Shown here piece after piece: positions 15,687 through 63,158 of a stretch of 64,000 bases of DNA. Each line of letters begins with the position of its first letter. Within the stretch, counting starts at the first letter, position 1. Source of the DNA: Hyphomonas sp. (lineage in GTDB: Bacteria > Pseudomonadota > Alphaproteobacteria > Caulobacterales > Hyphomonadaceae); NCBI RefSeq assembly GCF_016125515.1, contig NZ_WGLO01000010.1, positions 1-64,000 of the forward strand, given 5' to 3'. Made by a program: the position numbers and the translations under genes. The notes beneath the pieces are model-generated. The model saw only the letters and a program-made list of their open reading frames with translations, made no database searches and was not told the origin of the DNA.

Positions 15687-15828
15687 GGGAGGACGTCCTG
15701 CATAGTCAGAAGAGTAAATGGATACCGGGCCTAAAAGGTTCAACGGCTAGGCATTTTTGGGGCGCTTGATCGTTACTTTTGCATCACACTGTTGAAAGTG
15801 TGTGACTGGGCGTGCGGCTGGAAGCCGG

Positions 15829-15862
15829 TTGCCAAAACATATAAATGGATGTTTATATGTTT
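15829..15862 (+). promoter_or_regulatory. Promoter and near-perfect operator of the SAM-cycle operon (putative ArsR/SahR-type site)
   Basis: An 11-bp perfect inverted repeat (AAACATATAAA at 15835-15845, TTTATATGTTT at 15852-15862) with a 6-bp spacer lies immediately before the regulator's start. A -35-like TTGCCA (15829-15834) and a -10-like TTTATA/TTATAT (15852-15858) at 17-18 bp spacing overlap it, so a bound dimer would cover the promoter. The predicted transcription start falls at about 15865-15867, on or next to the ATG, suggesting a leaderless message. ArsR-family repressors typically bind such AT-rich dyads. A second small inverted repeat, CACACT-6-AGTGTG, is at 15785-15802. Confidence 0.65.
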
Positions 15863-15866
15863 CCGG

Positions 15867-16841
15867 ATGACGCACCTTGATGACCTTCTCGAAAAGCTGA
15901 AAGCGGCGGGCGAGCCTACGCGGCTCCGCCTTTTGGCGCTGTTGCGCGGCAACGACCTGTCTGTAGGCGAGCTGGTTCAGGTGCTGGGACAGAGCCAGCC
16001 GCGCCTGTCACACCATCTCAAGAACCTGTCCGAAGCGGGGCTGGCAGAGCGGTTGCCGGAAGGGGCATTCGTGTTCTACCGCGCCGCCCGCACAGAGCCG
16101 GGACTGTCTTTTCTGGACCATCTGTTTTCGCAGATCAGCCATGACGCACCCGAATTTCAGGCCGACCGGGACAAGCTGCGCGAAGTGATCCAGGCGCGCG
16201 CCGAATCGGCAGCGGCCTATTTCTCCAGCATCGCAGAAACCTGGGACTCCTTGAGGGCGCTGCATTTCCCCAATGAGGCCATCGAGGACACGCTGCTGGA
16301 GCTGGCTGGGCCGGGGCCCTATCGGCGGATTGTCGACTTCGGCACCGGCACGGGACGCATGCTGATGCTGCTGTCCGGCCGTGCGAAGGAGGCCGAGGGT
16401 ATCGATTTCAGCCACCGGATGCTGACCGTGGCCCGGGCAAACCTGGAACAGGCGGGCGTGAGCAACGGCCGGGTGCGCTTTGGCGATGTCACCGCGGCGC
16501 CGTTCGAGGATGCGTCGGCCGATCTCGTGATCGTGCATCAGGTGCTGCATTATCTGGACACGCCGGGCGACGCGATTGCCGAGGCCGCGCGTGTGCTGGT
16601 GCCGGGCGGCGCATTGCTGGTGATCGACTTTGCGCCGCACGATCTTGAATTCCTGCGCGCCGAACATGGCCACCGGCGCCTGGGCGTGCGCCATGACGCG
16701 CTGGCCGAATGGGCGCAGGCGGCCGGGCTGAAGCTCGACCCGCCACGTTCCTTCGATCCGCCGCAACAGGGCGCCCCGGGCCTGACCGTGAACATCTGGC
16801 GGGCCACCAAGCCCGCCGCTTCCAATGCGAGAGCTGCATGA
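15867..16841 (+). CDS. ArsR-family regulator fused to a SAM-dependent methyltransferase domain (SahR-like)
   Basis: 324 residues from the ATG at 15867; an in-frame ATG at 15849 lies inside the operator. An ArsR winged helix occupies about residues 1-90 (LGQSQPRLSHHLKNLSEAGL is the recognition region). A class I methyltransferase domain (DFGTGTGRMLMLLSG motif I, about residue 155; HQVLHYLD) fills the C-terminal half. No metal-binding CxxC of metal sensors is seen. ArsR regulators of this type (SahR) are known in Proteobacteria to repress SAM-cycle genes and respond to S-adenosylhomocysteine. The context here fits: metF overlaps its stop (ATGA) and both metH parts follow. The methyltransferase fold probably senses SAM or SAH; catalysis is not excluded. 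Confidence 0.85.
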   Translation: MTHLDDLLEKLKAAGEPTRLRLLALLRGNDLSVGELVQVLGQSQPRLSHHLKNLSEAGLAERLPEGAFVFYRAARTEPGLSFLDHLFSQISHDAPEFQADRDKLREVIQARAESAAAYFSSIAETWDSLRALHFPNEAIEDTLLELAGPGPYRRIVDFGTGTGRMLMLLSGRAKEAEGIDFSHRMLTVARANLEQAGVSNGRVRFGDVTAAPFEDASADLVIVHQVLHYLDTPGDAIAEAARVLVPGGALLVIDFAPHDLEFLRAEHGHRRLGVRHDALAEWAQAAGLKLDPPRSFDPPQQGAPGLTVNIWRATKPAASNARAA

Positions 16842-17737
16842 TCCGTTCCCAGACCAATCCTCACGACGCCGGCAAGGGCTTGCGCGTCTCGTTCGAGTTC
16901 TTTCCGCCGAAGACCGACGCGATGGCCGCGCGTCTGTGGGAAACCGTGGAGCGGCTGGAGCCGATGGCGCCGGACTTCGTGTCGGTGACCTATGGCGCGG
17001 GCGGCTCGACGCGCGAACGCACGCAGGCCATCGTCAAGCGCATGGCGGAGGAAACGATGCTGCGCCCGGCGGGGCACATCACCTGCGTTGCGGCAACGAA
17101 GGACGAGATCGACCAGGTGCTGCGCGACTATTGGGCGGCGGGCGTGAAGCGGATCGTGGCGCTGCGGGGCGACCCGACCGACGGGATCGGCACGCGTTAT
17201 GTCCCGCATCCGGGCGGCTACGCCTATGCCAGCGACCTGATTGCGGGTGCACGGAAGATTGCCGATTTTGACATTTCGGTGGGCTGCTATCCGGAAGTGC
17301 ATCCGGATGCGCCATCGCTGAAAGCCGAGGTGGAGAACCTGAAACGCAAGTTTGATGCCGGCGCCACGCGCGCGATCTCGCAGTTCTTCTTCTACCCCGA
17401 CGTATTCTTCAAGTTCGTCGACGCGGCGCGCGCAGCCGGCATCACGCAGCCGATCATTCCCGGGATCATGCTGCAGTCGAACTTTAACGGCCTGAAGCGG
17501 ATGGCGGATCTTTGCGGCACCGCCATTCCGGCGCGCATCGCGGAGATGTATGACGGGCTGGAAGATGATCCGGAGACGCGCGATCTCGTGACCGCGCATG
17601 TGGCCGCAGAGCTGTGCAACCGGCTGGCGGAGCAGGGCGTGAACCACTTCCATTTCTACACCATGAACCGGGCGGGTCTGTCGCTGTCGACATGCCGTCT
17701 GCTCGGCCTGAAACCCCAATCCGCAAAGGCGGCGTGA
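16838..17737 (+). CDS. metF: 5,10-methylenetetrahydrofolate reductase
   Basis: 299 residues, the normal MetF length. The TIM-barrel motifs are clear: SFEFFPPKT at the N-terminus, VSVTYGAGGST, VALRGDPTD, CYPEVHPDA and QFFFYPD. It reduces methylene-THF to 5-methyl-THF with FAD, supplying the methyl donor for MetH. The ATG overlaps the TGA of the ArsR-fusion regulator and the next gene starts 4 bp after its stop, so translation is likely coupled along the operon. Confidence 0.97.
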   Translation: MIRSQTNPHDAGKGLRVSFEFFPPKTDAMAARLWETVERLEPMAPDFVSVTYGAGGSTRERTQAIVKRMAEETMLRPAGHITCVAATKDEIDQVLRDYWAAGVKRIVALRGDPTDGIGTRYVPHPGGYAYASDLIAGARKIADFDISVGCYPEVHPDAPSLKAEVENLKRKFDAGATRAISQFFFYPDVFFKFVDAARAAGITQPIIPGIMLQSNFNGLKRMADLCGTAIPARIAEMYDGLEDDPETRDLVTAHVAAELCNRLAEQGVNHFHFYTMNRAGLSLSTCRLLGLKPQSAKAA

Positions 17738-17740
17738 CCG

Positions 17741-18808
17741 ATGACCAGACAAGATCGTATTGTCGCCCTGAAGGCCGCTGCGAAGGAACGTATCCTCATT
17801 CTGGATGGCTCCTGGGGCGTGATGATCCAGCGCCGGGGGCTGGCGGAGGAAGATTTCCGGGGCGAACGCTTCGCGGGTCATGTGGGTCAGATGAAGGGCA
17901 ACAACGACATCCTCTGCCTGACGCGGCCGGATATCGTGACCGATCTGCACAATGCCTATTACGGTGCGGGTGCGGACATTTCGGAGACGAATACGTTTTC
18001 AGCGACGACCATCGCGCAGGAAGACTACAAGCTCGATGCGGTCGCCGTGCGCGACATCAACCTTGCGGGCGCGCGCCTTGGCCGCGCGGCGGCGGATGCC
18101 TGGACCGCAAAGGAGCCGCACAAACCACGCTTCGTGGCTGGCTCCATCGGTCCGCTCAACAAGATGCTGTCGATGTCGGCGGATGTAAACGATCCGGGCG
18201 CGCGTTCGGTGACCTTTGACGACGTGTACGAAGCCTATCGCCAGCAGATCGTCGCGCTGAACGAAGGCGGAGTTGACCTCTACCTGATCGAGACGATCAC
18301 CGACACGCTGAACTGCAAGGCCTGCATCAAGGCGATCGTGGATCTTGAGGCTGAGGGGCTTGAGAAGCTGCCGATCTGGATTTCCGGCACCATTACCGAC
18401 CGGTCCGGCCGGACCCTCTCGGGCCAGACGGTGGAGGCGTTCTGGAATTCAGTGCGTCATGCCAAGCCGTTCGCCATCGGTTTCAACTGCGCGCTGGGCG
18501 CGGACCTGATGCGGCCGCACATCGCCGACATGGCGCGCGTGGCGGACACGCTGGTGGCGGCCTATCCGAATGCGGGCCTGCCGAACGAGATGGGTCAGTA
18601 TGACGAGCGGCCGGACCAGACGGCGAACTCGGTAGGCGCCTGGGCGAAGGACGGCATCGTCAACATTCTCGGCGGCTGCTGCGGCACGACGCCGGAGCAT
18701 ATCGCTGCCATCGCGAAGGCGGTTGAAGGCGTCAAGCCCCGCTTGGCGGCGCCGACGAAGCATACGATGCGGCTGGCGGGGCTGGAGCCGTTCGAGGTGG
18801 CGTCGTGA
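17741..18808 (+). CDS. metH: Methionine synthase, homocysteine-binding module (MetH part 1)
   Basis: 355 residues equal to the N-terminal homocysteine S-methyltransferase domain of MetH. Evidence is ILDGSWGVMIQ at the start, ETNTFSAT, and the zinc-site cysteines in GFNCALG and GGCCGTTPEH. The folate-, cobalamin- and activation domains are in a separate gene that starts at 19230. Splitting of MetH into these two proteins is known in alphaproteobacteria, and the two chains must associate for turnover. Unusually, an unrelated gene (18805-19233) lies between the halves and overlaps both. Confidence 0.95.
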   Translation: MTRQDRIVALKAAAKERILILDGSWGVMIQRRGLAEEDFRGERFAGHVGQMKGNNDILCLTRPDIVTDLHNAYYGAGADISETNTFSATTIAQEDYKLDAVAVRDINLAGARLGRAAADAWTAKEPHKPRFVAGSIGPLNKMLSMSADVNDPGARSVTFDDVYEAYRQQIVALNEGGVDLYLIETITDTLNCKACIKAIVDLEAEGLEKLPIWISGTITDRSGRTLSGQTVEAFWNSVRHAKPFAIGFNCALGADLMRPHIADMARVADTLVAAYPNAGLPNEMGQYDERPDQTANSVGAWAKDGIVNILGGCCGTTPEHIAAIAKAVEGVKPRLAAPTKHTMRLAGLEPFEVAS

Positions 18809-19233
18809 CGAAGCCGCCGGCGACCGAAGGCGACCTCTTCGTCTTCTATGGCCTGCTCAAACGAGGCGCCGCGGGGCAGCCGGCGGACTTGCCGTTGGCG
18901 GAGGCAGGCGCGTTCGGCGCACCCTGCTGGTTCCGTGGACGAATGGTGGACCTGGGCGGCTTTCCGGGTGTGGTGGCGGGCGATGAGCTTTGCCACGGCA
19001 TCCGCTGGCGCCTAAGCGATGCGGGGATCGTGCCCGCGATGGATGAATTCGAAGACGTGACAGACGACCCGGCAACGTCGCTATACCTGCGCGTGCAGGT
19101 GGCGCTGTGCGATGAAGCGGGCGCAGAGACGGGCGAGACCGCCTGGATCTATTGGTATAATCAGGATGTCAGCGCCTGTCCCGCCGTGCCCGGCGGGAAC
19201 TGGCCGCTGGATGCAGGAAGAATTCGCAAATGA
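18805..19233 (+). CDS. Gamma-glutamylcyclotransferase-like (AIG2/GGCT fold) protein
   Basis: 142 residues starting with a GTG that overlaps the metH part 1 stop (GTGA), and ending in ATGA overlap with metH part 2. The GGCT signature is visible: VFYGLLKRG (normally YGTLRxG), a central GFPGVVAGD, and the candidate catalytic glutamate in MDEFED. These folds cleave gamma-glutamyl amines or peptides with release of 5-oxoproline, though many homologues have no assigned substrate. Being translationally coupled to both metH halves, it may act on a gamma-glutamyl or sulfur metabolite tied to homocysteine, cysteine or glutathione. That is inference. Confidence 0.82.
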
Positions 19234-21869
19234 CGAAGAGCGCATCGCAGAACTTCATCAATATCGGTGAACGGACGAACGTGACCGGCTCGGCCGTGTT
19301 CCGGAAGATGATCACCGATGGGCGGTATGCCGACGCGGTGGAAGTGGCGCGCCATCAGGTCGAAAATGGCGCGCAGGTGATCGACGTCAACATGGACGAG
19401 GGTATGCTCGACGGCGTCGTCGCGATGCGTACCTTCCTGAACCTGATCGCGGCGGAGCCGGATATCGCACGCGTGCCGGTGATGATCGACTCGTCCAAGT
19501 GGGAGGTGATTGAGGCGGGCCTGAAATGCGTGCAGGGCAAGGCCATCGTCAACTCGATCTCCATGAAGGAAGGCGAGGCGAAATTCCGGGAGCAGGCGCG
19601 GGCCTGCATGGCCTATGGTGCGGCCGTGGTCGTGATGGCGTTCGACGAGGTGGGGCAGGCGGACACCAAGGCCCGCAAGGTCGAGATCTGTCAGCGCGCC
19701 TTCCGTATCCTGACGGAAGAGGTGGGGTTCCCCGCTGAAGACATCATCTTCGACCCGAACATCTTTGCGGTGGCGACCGGCATCGAAGAGCACAACAATT
19801 ACGCGCTCGATTTCATCGAGGCGGCGCGGGAAATCCGCGCGACTTGCCCCGGCTGCCATATCTCCGGCGGGCTTTCGAACGTCTCGTTCAGCTTCCGGGG
19901 CAATGAGCCGGTGCGCCGGGCGATGCACTCGGTGTTTCTCTATCATGCCATCCCGGCGGGCATGGACATGGGCATCGTCAATGCCGGCCAGCTTGATATC
20001 TATGACGACATTGAGCCTGAGCTGCGCGCGCGTGTCGAGGATGTGATCCTCAATCGCCGCGCGGATGCGACCGAGCGGCTGATCGAGATTGCCGAGGGCC
20101 TGAAGGGCCAGAAGGGCAAGAGCGCGGAAAAGGACCTGAAATGGCGCGATGCGCCGGTGGCGAAACGCCTTGAATACGCGCTGGTGCACGGTATCACCGA
20201 ATTCATCGATCAGGATACGGAAGAGGCGCGCCTGTCGGTCGAGCGCCCGCTGCACGTGATCGAAGGACCGCTGATGGATGGCATGAACGTCGTCGGCGAC
20301 CTGTTCGGATCCGGCAAGATGTTCCTGCCGCAGGTGGTGAAGTCGGCGCGCGTGATGAAGCAGGCGGTCGCCTGGCTCGAACCCTTCATGGAAGAGGAGA
20401 AGCAGCGTCTCGGCACGGTGGACGTCTCCAATGGCAAGGTGCTGATGGCGACCGTAAAAGGCGACGTGCACGACATCGGCAAGAATATCGTTGGCGTGGT
20501 GCTGGCCTGTAACGGCTATGACATCATTGACCTTGGCGTGATGGTGCCGGCCGAAAAGATTCTTGAAACGGCCATTAATGAGAAGGTCGACATCATCGGC
20601 CTGTCCGGTCTGATCACGCCGAGCCTCGACGAGATGGTGTTTGTCGCCAGCGAGATGCAGCGGCGCGGGATGACGCAGCCTCTTCTGATCGGCGGGGCAA
20701 CGACGAGCCCGGCGCATACGGCTGTGAAGATCGATCCAGTCATCCGTTCGGCGCCGGTGATCCATGTGGTGGATGCCAGCCGCGCCGTGGGTGTCGTCTC
20801 GGCGCTCCTGAACGACGAGGACCGACCGGCCCTGGTCGCACAGACGCGCGCACGCTACGAACGCATGCGTGAAGCGCGCAAGGATGGTCCGCCGAAGCCC
20901 CGGTTGTCGCTGGCGGACGCGCGCAAGGCCGCCTTCCGGCCCGACTGGGCGAACTACACCGCGCCGAAACCGGCCTTCACGGGTACGCGCACATTCGAGG
21001 GCATCGATCTGGCCACGCTGGCCCGGTACATCGACTGGACGCCTTACTTCTCTGCCTGGGACCTTGCCGGCCACTATCCGGAAATCCTGGAAGATGCGGT
21101 GGTCGGCGAGGCAGCGCGGGGCCTATGGCGCGATACCGAAGCAATGATGCAACGGCTGATCGGCGAAAGCTGGTTCAATCCCAAAGCCGTGGTTGGCTTC
21201 TGGGGCGCGAAGGCGGTGGGCGACGATATCCGTCTCAGCACCGGCGACACGTTCCATACGCTCCGCCAGCAGATGAAGAAGGACAATGGTCGCGCCAACT
21301 ATGCGCTTTCAGACTTCATTGCGCCTGAGGGCGAGGACTGGATCGGCGGCTTCTGCGTGACCGCCGGCCCGGAAGCCGACCGGATTGCCGAGACGTTCAA
21401 AGCCAAAGGCGACGACTATTCCTCGATCATGGTCAAGGCGCTGGCTGACCGGTTTGCCGAGGCGATGGCGGAATACATGCACGAGCGCGTGCGCAAGGAA
21501 TTGTGGGGCTATGCGCCAGATGAAGCGCTGACGCGCGAGGAGCTGATTGCCGAGAAGTATCGCGGCATCCGGCCCGCGCCCGGCTATCCGTCGCAACCGG
21601 AACATTCCGAGAAGGCGACCCTGTTCCGCCTGCTGGATGCCGAACGGCAGATCGGTGTGGAGCTTACCTCAAGCTTTGCGATGAACCCGGCACCGTCCGT
21701 GTCCGGAATGTATTTCGCAAACCCTGCGGCGATTTATTTTGCGCTCGGCCGTATCGAGCGCGACCAGGTGGAGGATTATGCCCGCCGCAAGGGCTGGGAC
21801 GTGAAGACGGCCGAGCGCTGGCTGGCGCCGGTGCTGAATTTCGATCCGTTCGTTCTGGTCGAGGCCTAA
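19230..21869 (+). CDS. metH: Methionine synthase, folate-, cobalamin- and activation-domain module (MetH part 2)
   Basis: 879 residues. Domains in order are: pterin-binding ([17 protein letters not shown] at the start, then [11 protein letters not shown]); cobalamin cap and Rossmann domain with the base-off ligand motif DVHDIG near residue 413, then GLSGLITPS and IGGATTS; and the SAM-binding reactivation domain from about residue 580 ([13 protein letters not shown]). It transfers a methyl group from 5-methyl-THF through B12 to homocysteine held by part 1. The reactivation domain uses SAM, so SAH/SAM control by the operon's regulator makes sense. It overlaps the GGCT-like gene by 4 bp. Confidence 0.97.
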
Positions 21870-21872
21870 ACG

Positions 21873-22253
21873 TTGCGCCTGCGGACCGTGACGTTCGTGG
21901 TGCCGGATTATAAGGCCGGTCTTGCGTTCTTTGTGGGCAAGCTCGGGTTCGATCTGGTCGAAGACACGTTGCTCGGAGGCGGCAAGCGCTGGGTGGTTGT
22001 GGCGCCGAAGGGCGCAGAAACGCGGTTGCTGCTGGCGGTGGCCGATGGTGACGCTCAGCGCGCCGCCATCGGAAACCAGACAGGCGGCCGCGTCGCCTTC
22101 TTTCTGGAGACGGACGATTTTGACCGCGATCATGCCGCGTTCGCCGGGCGTGGCGTGACCTTCATGGAAGCGCCGCGCCGGGAAGAATATGGAACCGTCG
22201 CCGTGTTCCGCGACGATTTCGGGAATCTGTGGGACCTTATCCAGATCGTTTGA
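21873..22253 (+). CDS. VOC family protein (glyoxalase/bleomycin-resistance fold)
   Basis: 126 residues, one vicinal-oxygen-chelate domain of two beta-alpha-beta repeats (LRTVTFVVPDYKAGLAFFVGKLGF and the C-terminal VFRDDFGNLWDLIQ). The start is a TTG three bases after the metH stop; no ATG or GTG allows the first beta strand. Proteins of this type can be lactoylglutathione lyases, dioxygenases or resistance proteins. The substrate is unknown. It is the last gene of the SAM-cycle operon, and its 3' end overlaps the remnant of a DUF5694 gene on the other strand. Confidence 0.8.
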   Translation: MRLRTVTFVVPDYKAGLAFFVGKLGFDLVEDTLLGGGKRWVVVAPKGAETRLLLAVADGDAQRAAIGNQTGGRVAFFLETDDFDRDHAAFAGRGVTFMEAPRREEYGTVAVFRDDFGNLWDLIQIV

Positions 22254-37519: not shown

Positions 37520-37551
37520 AAAAGCCCCGGCCTTCGCGCCGGGGCTTTTTC
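37520..37551 (+). terminator. Rho-independent terminator of clpX
   Basis: Stem AAAAGCCCCGG (37520-37530) / CCGGGGCTTTT (37539-37549) with an 8-nt loop, followed by more T. It lies 25 bp after the clpX stop. Confidence 0.9.
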
Positions 37552-37570
37552 GTTCCGGAGCCCGGACGCC

Positions 37571-37606
37571 GAAAAGAAAAGGCCGGCATCCGAAGATGCC
37601 GGCCTT
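37571..37606 (-). terminator. Rho-independent terminator of glnA (minus strand)
   Basis: A 12-bp perfect stem (AAGGCCGGCATC at 37579-37590, GATGCCGGCCTT at 37595-37606) with loop CGAA. On the minus strand it is followed by TTTTCTTTTC. It lies about 50 bp past the glnA stop; a 21-bp tandem duplication separates the two. Confidence 0.85.
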
Positions 37607-63107: not shown

Positions 63108-63130
63108 GCGTGTCGGGGACGACGACGGGA

Positions 63131-63158
63131 AAGCCCGCCTTTCGAGGCGGGCTTTTTC
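63131..63158 (+). terminator. Rho-independent terminator after rfbC
   Basis: A perfect 10-bp stem AAGCCCGCCT / AGGCGGGCTT with a TTCG loop and a T-rich tail, 24 bp past the rfbC stop. Confidence 0.92.

Follow-up and report, generated by a model that had tools for sequence, protein, structure and literature searches.

The question raised by this locus is how closely the binding site of a repressor can be combined with the promoter and start codon of the gene that it controls. The stretch analysed, 64,000 nt from Hyphomonas sp. (NCBI RefSeq assembly GCF_016125515.1, contig NZ_WGLO01000010.1, positions 1 to 64,000; hereafter the window), carries sahR at the head of an operon with metF and both parts of metH, and directly upstream of sahR a palindromic dyad predicted to be the operator of its product, SahR, a regulator of S-adenosylmethionine (SAM) cycle genes. 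Going by sequence comparison, the regulator is a known one, and what is unusual is how far its operator seems to be merged with promoter and start.

The predicted operator at sahR

A first-pass annotation of the window had described a 28-bp dyad with perfect 11-bp arms, and this was confirmed, both arms being exact at 15835-15862. The dyad ends 4 bp before the predicted start codon of sahR at 15867. The elements of this region are as follows.

15829..15834, + strand: -35-like TTGCCA, 18 bp before TTATAT; its TTG stands at a conserved distance in relatives and is missed by a consensus scan
15835..15862, no strand: predicted operator of SahR, a 28-bp dyad whose 11-bp arms match perfectly, AAACATATAAA-N6-TTTATATGTTT
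15839..15858, no strand: 20-bp operator core ATATAAA-N6-TTTATAT, equal in length to the SahR palindrome described in PMC4239095 and conserved in relatives
15853..15858, + strand: putative -10 element TTATAT, identical with the right half-site of the operator, at near-fixed spacing to the TTG and the start codon
15865..15867, + strand: predicted transcription start, 0-2 nt before the start codon and 7 nt past the putative -10
15867..16841, + strand: sahR, encoding an ArsR-type helix-turn-helix (HTH) domain (residues 9-76 match NF033788; HTH_5) and a class I methyltransferase domain (Methyltransf_11 at 156-251)

With up to three mismatches allowed, the full dyad pattern had a single match in the window (0 in 100 shuffles) and a single match across the 3.22-Mb genome. 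Perfect dyads with 11-bp arms and spacers of 3-10 bp gave six entries in the window, overlapping ones counted, whereas 20 Markov-1 simulations averaged 0.1; the remaining five entries are GC-rich. Such GC-rich repeats lie at 37520-37605 and 63130-63155; those at 37520 and 63130 lead into T stretches and appear terminator-like by eye.

Conservation was assessed in 61 genomes of the same family (the own family; ten genera), in 80 genomes of the order (Caulobacterales), and in 51 sahR loci from a homology search, of which 47 were scanned after L058-L061 (partial matches, 31-32% identity) had been dropped; the core was scored as matches out of 14. Among the best matches, SahR of the window is 90% identical to that of a Hyphomonas metagenome-assembled genome (MAG). 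All 61 own-family genomes contain sahR (one match each at E 1e-20), and in all of them the core lies upstream of it, scoring 14/14 in 43, 13 in nine, 12 in six and 11 in three. The absence of the dyad from relatives with the same gene order, named beforehand as an observation that would count against the proposal, was thus not encountered. The best core scored 11-14/14 in 45 of the 47 scanned loci and 10/14 in two, and L032 (10/14, symmetry 3/10) showed no convincing dyad. In the order sample, sahR was found in 78 of the 80 genomes, one of which has two. The core reached at least 9/14 in 56 of 62 loci of the order outside the own family, the remaining six, all of family f4, being without it; G103 was counted as dyad-bearing at 9/14 with a symmetry of only 3/10.

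Putative promoter elements and start codon

The reading frame of sahR is also open from an ATG at 15849, within the dyad, and from a TTG at 15792. Since such alternative in-frame starts exist and relatives point to 15867, the latter was taken as the start codon. In-frame starts before the core are absent from 34 of the 61 own-family genomes and present in 27. Taking the first start at +3 or later from the core (in G022 and G046 an ATG at -2 is in frame too), the start codon falls at +5 to +9 in 54 of the 61 (+6 in 44). The remaining seven, all of genus g3, have it at +16 to +22. No Shine-Dalgarno (SD) sequence was seen by eye ahead of 15867. Anti-SD pairing of -4 kcal/mol or better was found in 11 of the 54 close-start genomes and in six of the seven g3 genomes, and in 54 of 56 sequences of ahcY, used as a positive control.

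The upstream regions were compared after exclusion of genus g3 and then of 10 of the 54 others as redundant, leaving 44 non-redundant regions. These share a mean identity of 26% at -60 to -15, and conservation above this background is confined to the TTG block, the dyad and the region of the start codon; each column from -60 to -13 holds 0.3 bits or less. A TTG starts at -12 to -7 from the core in 44/44 regions (5-25% in 11 control windows). The spacer between the TTG hexamer and TTATAT is 17 bp in 28, 18 in 12, 16 in three and 20 in one, that is, 16-18 in 43/44. In the 37 regions with +6 spacing, the gap before the start codon is filled by 22 different hexamers, so that the distance is conserved more than the sequence. 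Leaderless transcription of sahR is a prediction well supported by these comparisons, the message most likely having its 5' end at or within two bases of the AUG. The earlier claims of a leaderless start and of a dyad that covers the -10 are supported by the near-fixed TTG and start-codon spacing, the former across the 61 own-family genomes, and not by the consensus promoter scan, which gave no hit.

Two apparent promoter phases on one operator

The position of the TTG relative to the core differs between groups of bacteria. In the own family, the nearest TTG lies at -9 to -12 in 55 of the 61 genomes. Family f2 resembles it, with the TTG at -10 to -13 in 14/16, mostly at -10 to -12, and the start codon at +3 to +6 in 15/16. 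Family f5 has the TTG at -6 to -10 in 16/16 and, unlike the own family, a start codon at +16 or more in 15/16. In family f4, the TTG is missing in 7/8, and all eight loci with a core have the start codon at +14 or more. Start-codon distances are mixed in family f3, where the rule gives +4 for five genomes of genus g12, although in these an ATG at +19 that follows AGGA is more plausible as the start. Outside the order (28 of the 31 loci L027-L057; L031, L032 and L055 excluded), a TTG is found at -28 to -16 in 20 of the 28 loci, exactly at -20 in 17, and at -14 to -7 in five, double counting being possible; were the left half-site the -10 there, its spacer to the TTG would be 15-17. From these distances we infer that the -10 is built from the left half-site outside the order and from the right half-site in the own family. 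On balance, it seems probable that the SahR operator of Hyphomonas and its neighbours has merged with expression signals, namely the -10 and AUG at sahR and the SD and start codon at ahcY, and that the promoter has shifted by roughly one helical turn while the operator stayed in place, which would have made leaderless expression possible.

A second predicted operator at ahcY

The first-pass annotation had proposed that the motif be sought in the genome ahead of ahcY, metK and metE. Allowing up to three mismatches, the core matched nine genomic places, compared with six for a reversed control pattern. Besides sahR, the sole place with fewer than three mismatches was C9:16303-16322, with one mismatch, and its final two bases coincide with the AT of the ahcY ATG. 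On the same strand, ahcY is followed by a purU-like open reading frame (ORF; by eye) and then by metK, starting about 2.3 kb on; metK had no strong operator site of its own in the genome core scan. With the second site at ahcY and metK downstream of it, two operons therefore hold metF, metH, ahcY and metK. The purU-like ORF (formyltetrahydrofolate deformylase, by eye) occupies 593-1450 of L063, a locus on contig C9 of the same genome, between ahcY and metK. The seven further core sites, all with three mismatches, were treated as chance, the reversed control giving six. The one of them inspected, at 1501-1520 of L004, lies about 28 bp before a bacterioferritin-like ORF (by eye), where no SAM-cycle gene was recognised; it is probably a chance match.

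A full ahcY was available from 56 own-family genomes (G032, G041, G051, G054 and G060 gave none, and L092 is incomplete). The dyad ends on the ahcY ATG in 30 of the 56 (+2 in 29, +4 in one), comprising all sampled members of g1, g4, g8 and g9, and in these 30 the AAAGGA-like left half of the dyad is the ahcY SD. In another 25 (g2, g3, g5, g6, g7 and g10), the dyad is upstream by 50 bp or more, and one of the 56 ends early. Outside the own family, the ahcY site is upstream wherever it was found, G112 being ambiguous and placed by an upstream ATG. Since the on-ATG site is confined to some own-family genera, the move of the operator onto the ahcY ribosome site looks like a local change.

The SahR protein

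SahR proteins combine an ArsR-type HTH with a SAM-binding methyltransferase domain, and the window protein has both. The fusion at the head of the operon, already recognised in the first reading, was recovered as HTH_5 plus Methyltransf_11 in the product of 15867-16841. Residues D157, GTGTG 159-163, D180, H224, H228, DFAPH 254-258 and H269 are invariant in 38/38 homologs, and this invariant SAM/S-adenosylhomocysteine (SAH)-binding motif is consistent with the methyltransferase fold acting as an SAH sensor. The predicted structure comprises a winged helix and a Rossmann methyltransferase domain (mean predicted local distance difference test score, pLDDT, of 87). The top Foldseek matches are small-molecule methyltransferases, used here at domain level given a whole-chain root-mean-square deviation near 19 A; at that level the model matches SAM methyltransferases.

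ArsM-type arsenite methyltransferases have conserved catalytic cysteines. The window protein has no cysteine in its 324 residues and thus neither an ArsR-type cysteine metal/metalloid site nor ArsM-type catalytic cysteines, and SahR is cysteine-free in 37 of the 61 own-family genomes. The commonest cysteine column among the 38 homologs is occupied in 16, the window protein not among them, and Cys134 is present in six of eight proteins of genus g11 and in none of the eight other family f2 proteins. The catalytic cysteines cited in PMC10190100 are those of C. merolae ArsM.

Gene layout of the operon

From sahR to a glyoxalase ORF, the genes of the window are co-directional and separated by overlaps or gaps of a few bases only. 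Those downstream of sahR are:

16838..17737, + strand: metF, methylenetetrahydrofolate reductase, in ATGA overlap with sahR
17741..18808, + strand: metH N-terminal part, homocysteine S-methyltransferase domain
18805..19233, + strand: GGACT (AIG2-like gamma-glutamylcyclotransferase) ORF between the metH halves
19230..21869, + strand: metH C-terminal part, with pterin-binding, B12-binding and activation domains
21873..22253, + strand: glyoxalase-superfamily ORF, 3 bp 3' of metH and possibly the last gene of the operon

The order of sahR, metF and both metH parts agrees with the initial description, which had missed the GGACT ORF interrupting the metH pair. Of 17 Hyphomonadaceae-type loci, 14 carry this ORF alongside the metH parts (L031 ends before that point), and no copy was found in the 30 other loci. 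At E 1e-6, a glyoxalase-family ORF was found in 6/47 loci, each of them Hyphomonadaceae-type (some of the loci end early), and metF lies 3' of sahR in 47/47 scanned loci.

At the protein level, the window metF shares only 60-64% identity with its counterparts in seven relatives, which are 70-95% alike among themselves, unlike the neighbouring sahR, which shows 85-90% identity to its nearest four relatives; it looks as though metF has been replaced in place in the window genome. The metH N-terminal part occurs in two versions, about 60% alike, among eight compared (window, L013, L026 and L023 versus L011, L014, L016 and L020), and this split does not track sahR relationships. L012, L014, L016 and L017 are Hyphomonas-like contigs that carry the public labels Acidobacteria or Sulfopaludibacter and are probably mislabelled MAGs.

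Proposed mechanism and alternative explanations

The genes, dyad, conservation, second site and spacing described above are, in our view, likely to be explained jointly by an autoregulated SahR operon that controls methyl recycling, with SAH-released repression and a leaderless sahR mRNA. A SahR dimer would bind the dyad, covering the -10 in the right half-site, and block RNA polymerase. As SAH rises, it would bind the methyltransferase-fold domain, SahR would leave the DNA, and metF and both metH parts would be expressed; through the second site, ahcY would be expressed too, probably with purU and metK, and SAH would be recycled to methionine and SAM. The sahR mRNA, starting at or within two bases of the AUG, would be translated leaderless. 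For this organism, we infer the DNA binding, the ligand, the direction of control, the transcription start and leaderless translation.

Several observations weigh against this explanation. The same SahR repressor could act on a leadered transcript, made from an upstream promoter or from one at the left half-site and translated by non-SD initiation. A standard sigma-70 consensus scan of 15690-15900 found no promoter, so the evidence for the -10 is comparative and does not include a consensus match; in favour of a leadered transcript, the left half of the dyad contains TATAAA. Because TTATAT is also part of the operator, its conservation does not by itself establish a -10. The window start codon is at +8, not at the modal +6. 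The SD-like matches in 11 of the 54 close-start genomes are, by eye, mostly AAGGA inside the dyad. A missing SD is by itself insufficient to prove leaderlessness, because non-SD leadered initiation is common in Caulobacter, where 24.6% of coding sequences are reported to have an SD; the same study reports frequent leaderless mRNAs, 375 in all (PMC4117421). However, the near-featureless columns at -60 to -13 leave no -35 in sight for the left half, the TTG keeps its 16-18 bp distance from the right half in all but one of the 44 regions, and an SD-like match appears in 6/7 where the start codon is farther away (g3). A leadered message is thus considered unlikely. Counting likewise against our explanation, an apparent ortholog, ArsR-M of Brevundimonas sp. 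M20, has been published as an arsenite methyltransferase (Li 2023, PMC10190100), and a search around the dyad of 16 f2 loci did not recover the palindrome CTTTATATAAAG given there.

On that account, the window protein would be a bifunctional arsenite methyltransferase and repressor tying arsenic to methionine metabolism. The M20 protein raised the arsenite tolerance of E. coli, scored in a methyltransferase kit assay and is encoded in an arsRM-metF-HMT1-metH operon, and its residues H223, Q224, H227, F254, R263 and H268 correspond to H224, Q225, H228, F255, R264 and H269 in the window (PMC10190100). Nevertheless, the window protein and 37 of the 61 own-family proteins lack cysteine altogether, the M20 cysteine C134 recurs within f2 only in g11, the window protein lacks a cysteine in the commonest cysteine column, and SAM-cycle genes adjoin it and carry both good operator sites (no search for ars genes was made), which makes an arsenic function very improbable. 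Equally improbable is a SamR-like regulator that senses SAM instead of SAH: SamR, which shares about 30% identity with SahR as a homolog, adjoins metH in Xanthomonadales, but the strong second site at ahcY falls outside the SamR targets named in PMC4239095, and the core here is 20 bp long as against the 24-bp SamR motif. Least probable of all is that the dyad acts as an RNA element, whether terminator, hairpin or riboswitch. It is a palindrome close to a start codon, and the ahcY copy spans SD and AUG; yet the sahR dyad lies upstream of the predicted transcription start, the ahcY copy folds as RNA no better than shuffles (z -0.12), and no Rfam riboswitch was matched in the window or at ahcY, the sole Rfam match being a tRNA.

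What the SahR explanation adds is that the docking site of the regulator is apparently merged with the promoters and start signals of its target genes. It offers a testable case in which a few dozen bases would serve as operator, promoter and start codon together, with near-fixed spacing in nine of the ten sampled own-family genera, and published Caulobacter start-site maps may allow the leaderless claim to be checked with no new experiment.

Comparison with known systems

SahR in Hyphomonadaceae is already known: PMC4239095 (Leyn 2014) gives a 20-bp palindrome and a core regulon of sahR, ahcY, metH, metH2, metF and metK. The regulator described here is taken to be SahR, published SahR being compared by description, and the earlier claim of a SahR-autoregulated SAM-cycle operon is supported by apparent orthology, gene order, the ahcY site and literature on relatives. 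The locus shares with the SahR regulon of alpha- and deltaproteobacteria (Novichkov 2014, via citing papers; PMC4239095) the ArsR-family regulator, the 20-bp palindrome, here at 15839-15858 upstream of sahR, the core targets, with operators at the sahR-metF-metH operon and at ahcY, upstream of metK, and the occurrence in Hyphomonadaceae. A leaderless start, the phasing of operator and -10, and an operator over the ahcY SD and start are not described in the SahR regulon passages of PMC4239095. Titles and abstract openings likewise yielded no literature on an ahcY operator overlap or a leaderless SahR, subscription papers such as Novichkov 2014 lying outside this scope.

SamR of Xanthomonadales shares distant homology and a position beside metH genes, and differs in its 24-bp motif and in not having ahcY among its named targets (PMC4239095), whereas a 20-bp core and an ahcY site are present here. 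ArsR-M of Brevundimonas, the product of a 960-bp gene, which shifts its own promoter DNA (PMC10190100), shares the fusion heading a metF-HMT1-metH operon, the binding to its own promoter and the pocket residues, shifted by one; it differs in its C134, absent from the window protein, and in being read as an arsenite methyltransferase. SahR is mentioned 0 times in the main text of that paper. Because operon, length (320 aa in 6/8 g11 proteins), C134 and the named pocket residues agree with g11 and SahR, ArsR-M is very probably a SahR ortholog and genus g11 Brevundimonas-like. This suggests that one protein family has apparently been described twice, as SahR and as ArsR-M, with different functions, which bears on arsenic-gene annotation in these bacteria.

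The SAH response of SahR has been shown in Desulfovibrio, as cited in the literature on the family. In Ensifer aridi, sahR is 1023 bp long and promoter activity was highest in a sahR deletion, which was taken as autoregulation, with predicted operators at sahR, ahcY, metH, metK and bhmT (PMC8877191). In the loci from outside the order that stand beside this comparison, the TTG lies exactly 20 bp before the core in 17/28, not 9-12 bp as in the family of Hyphomonas.

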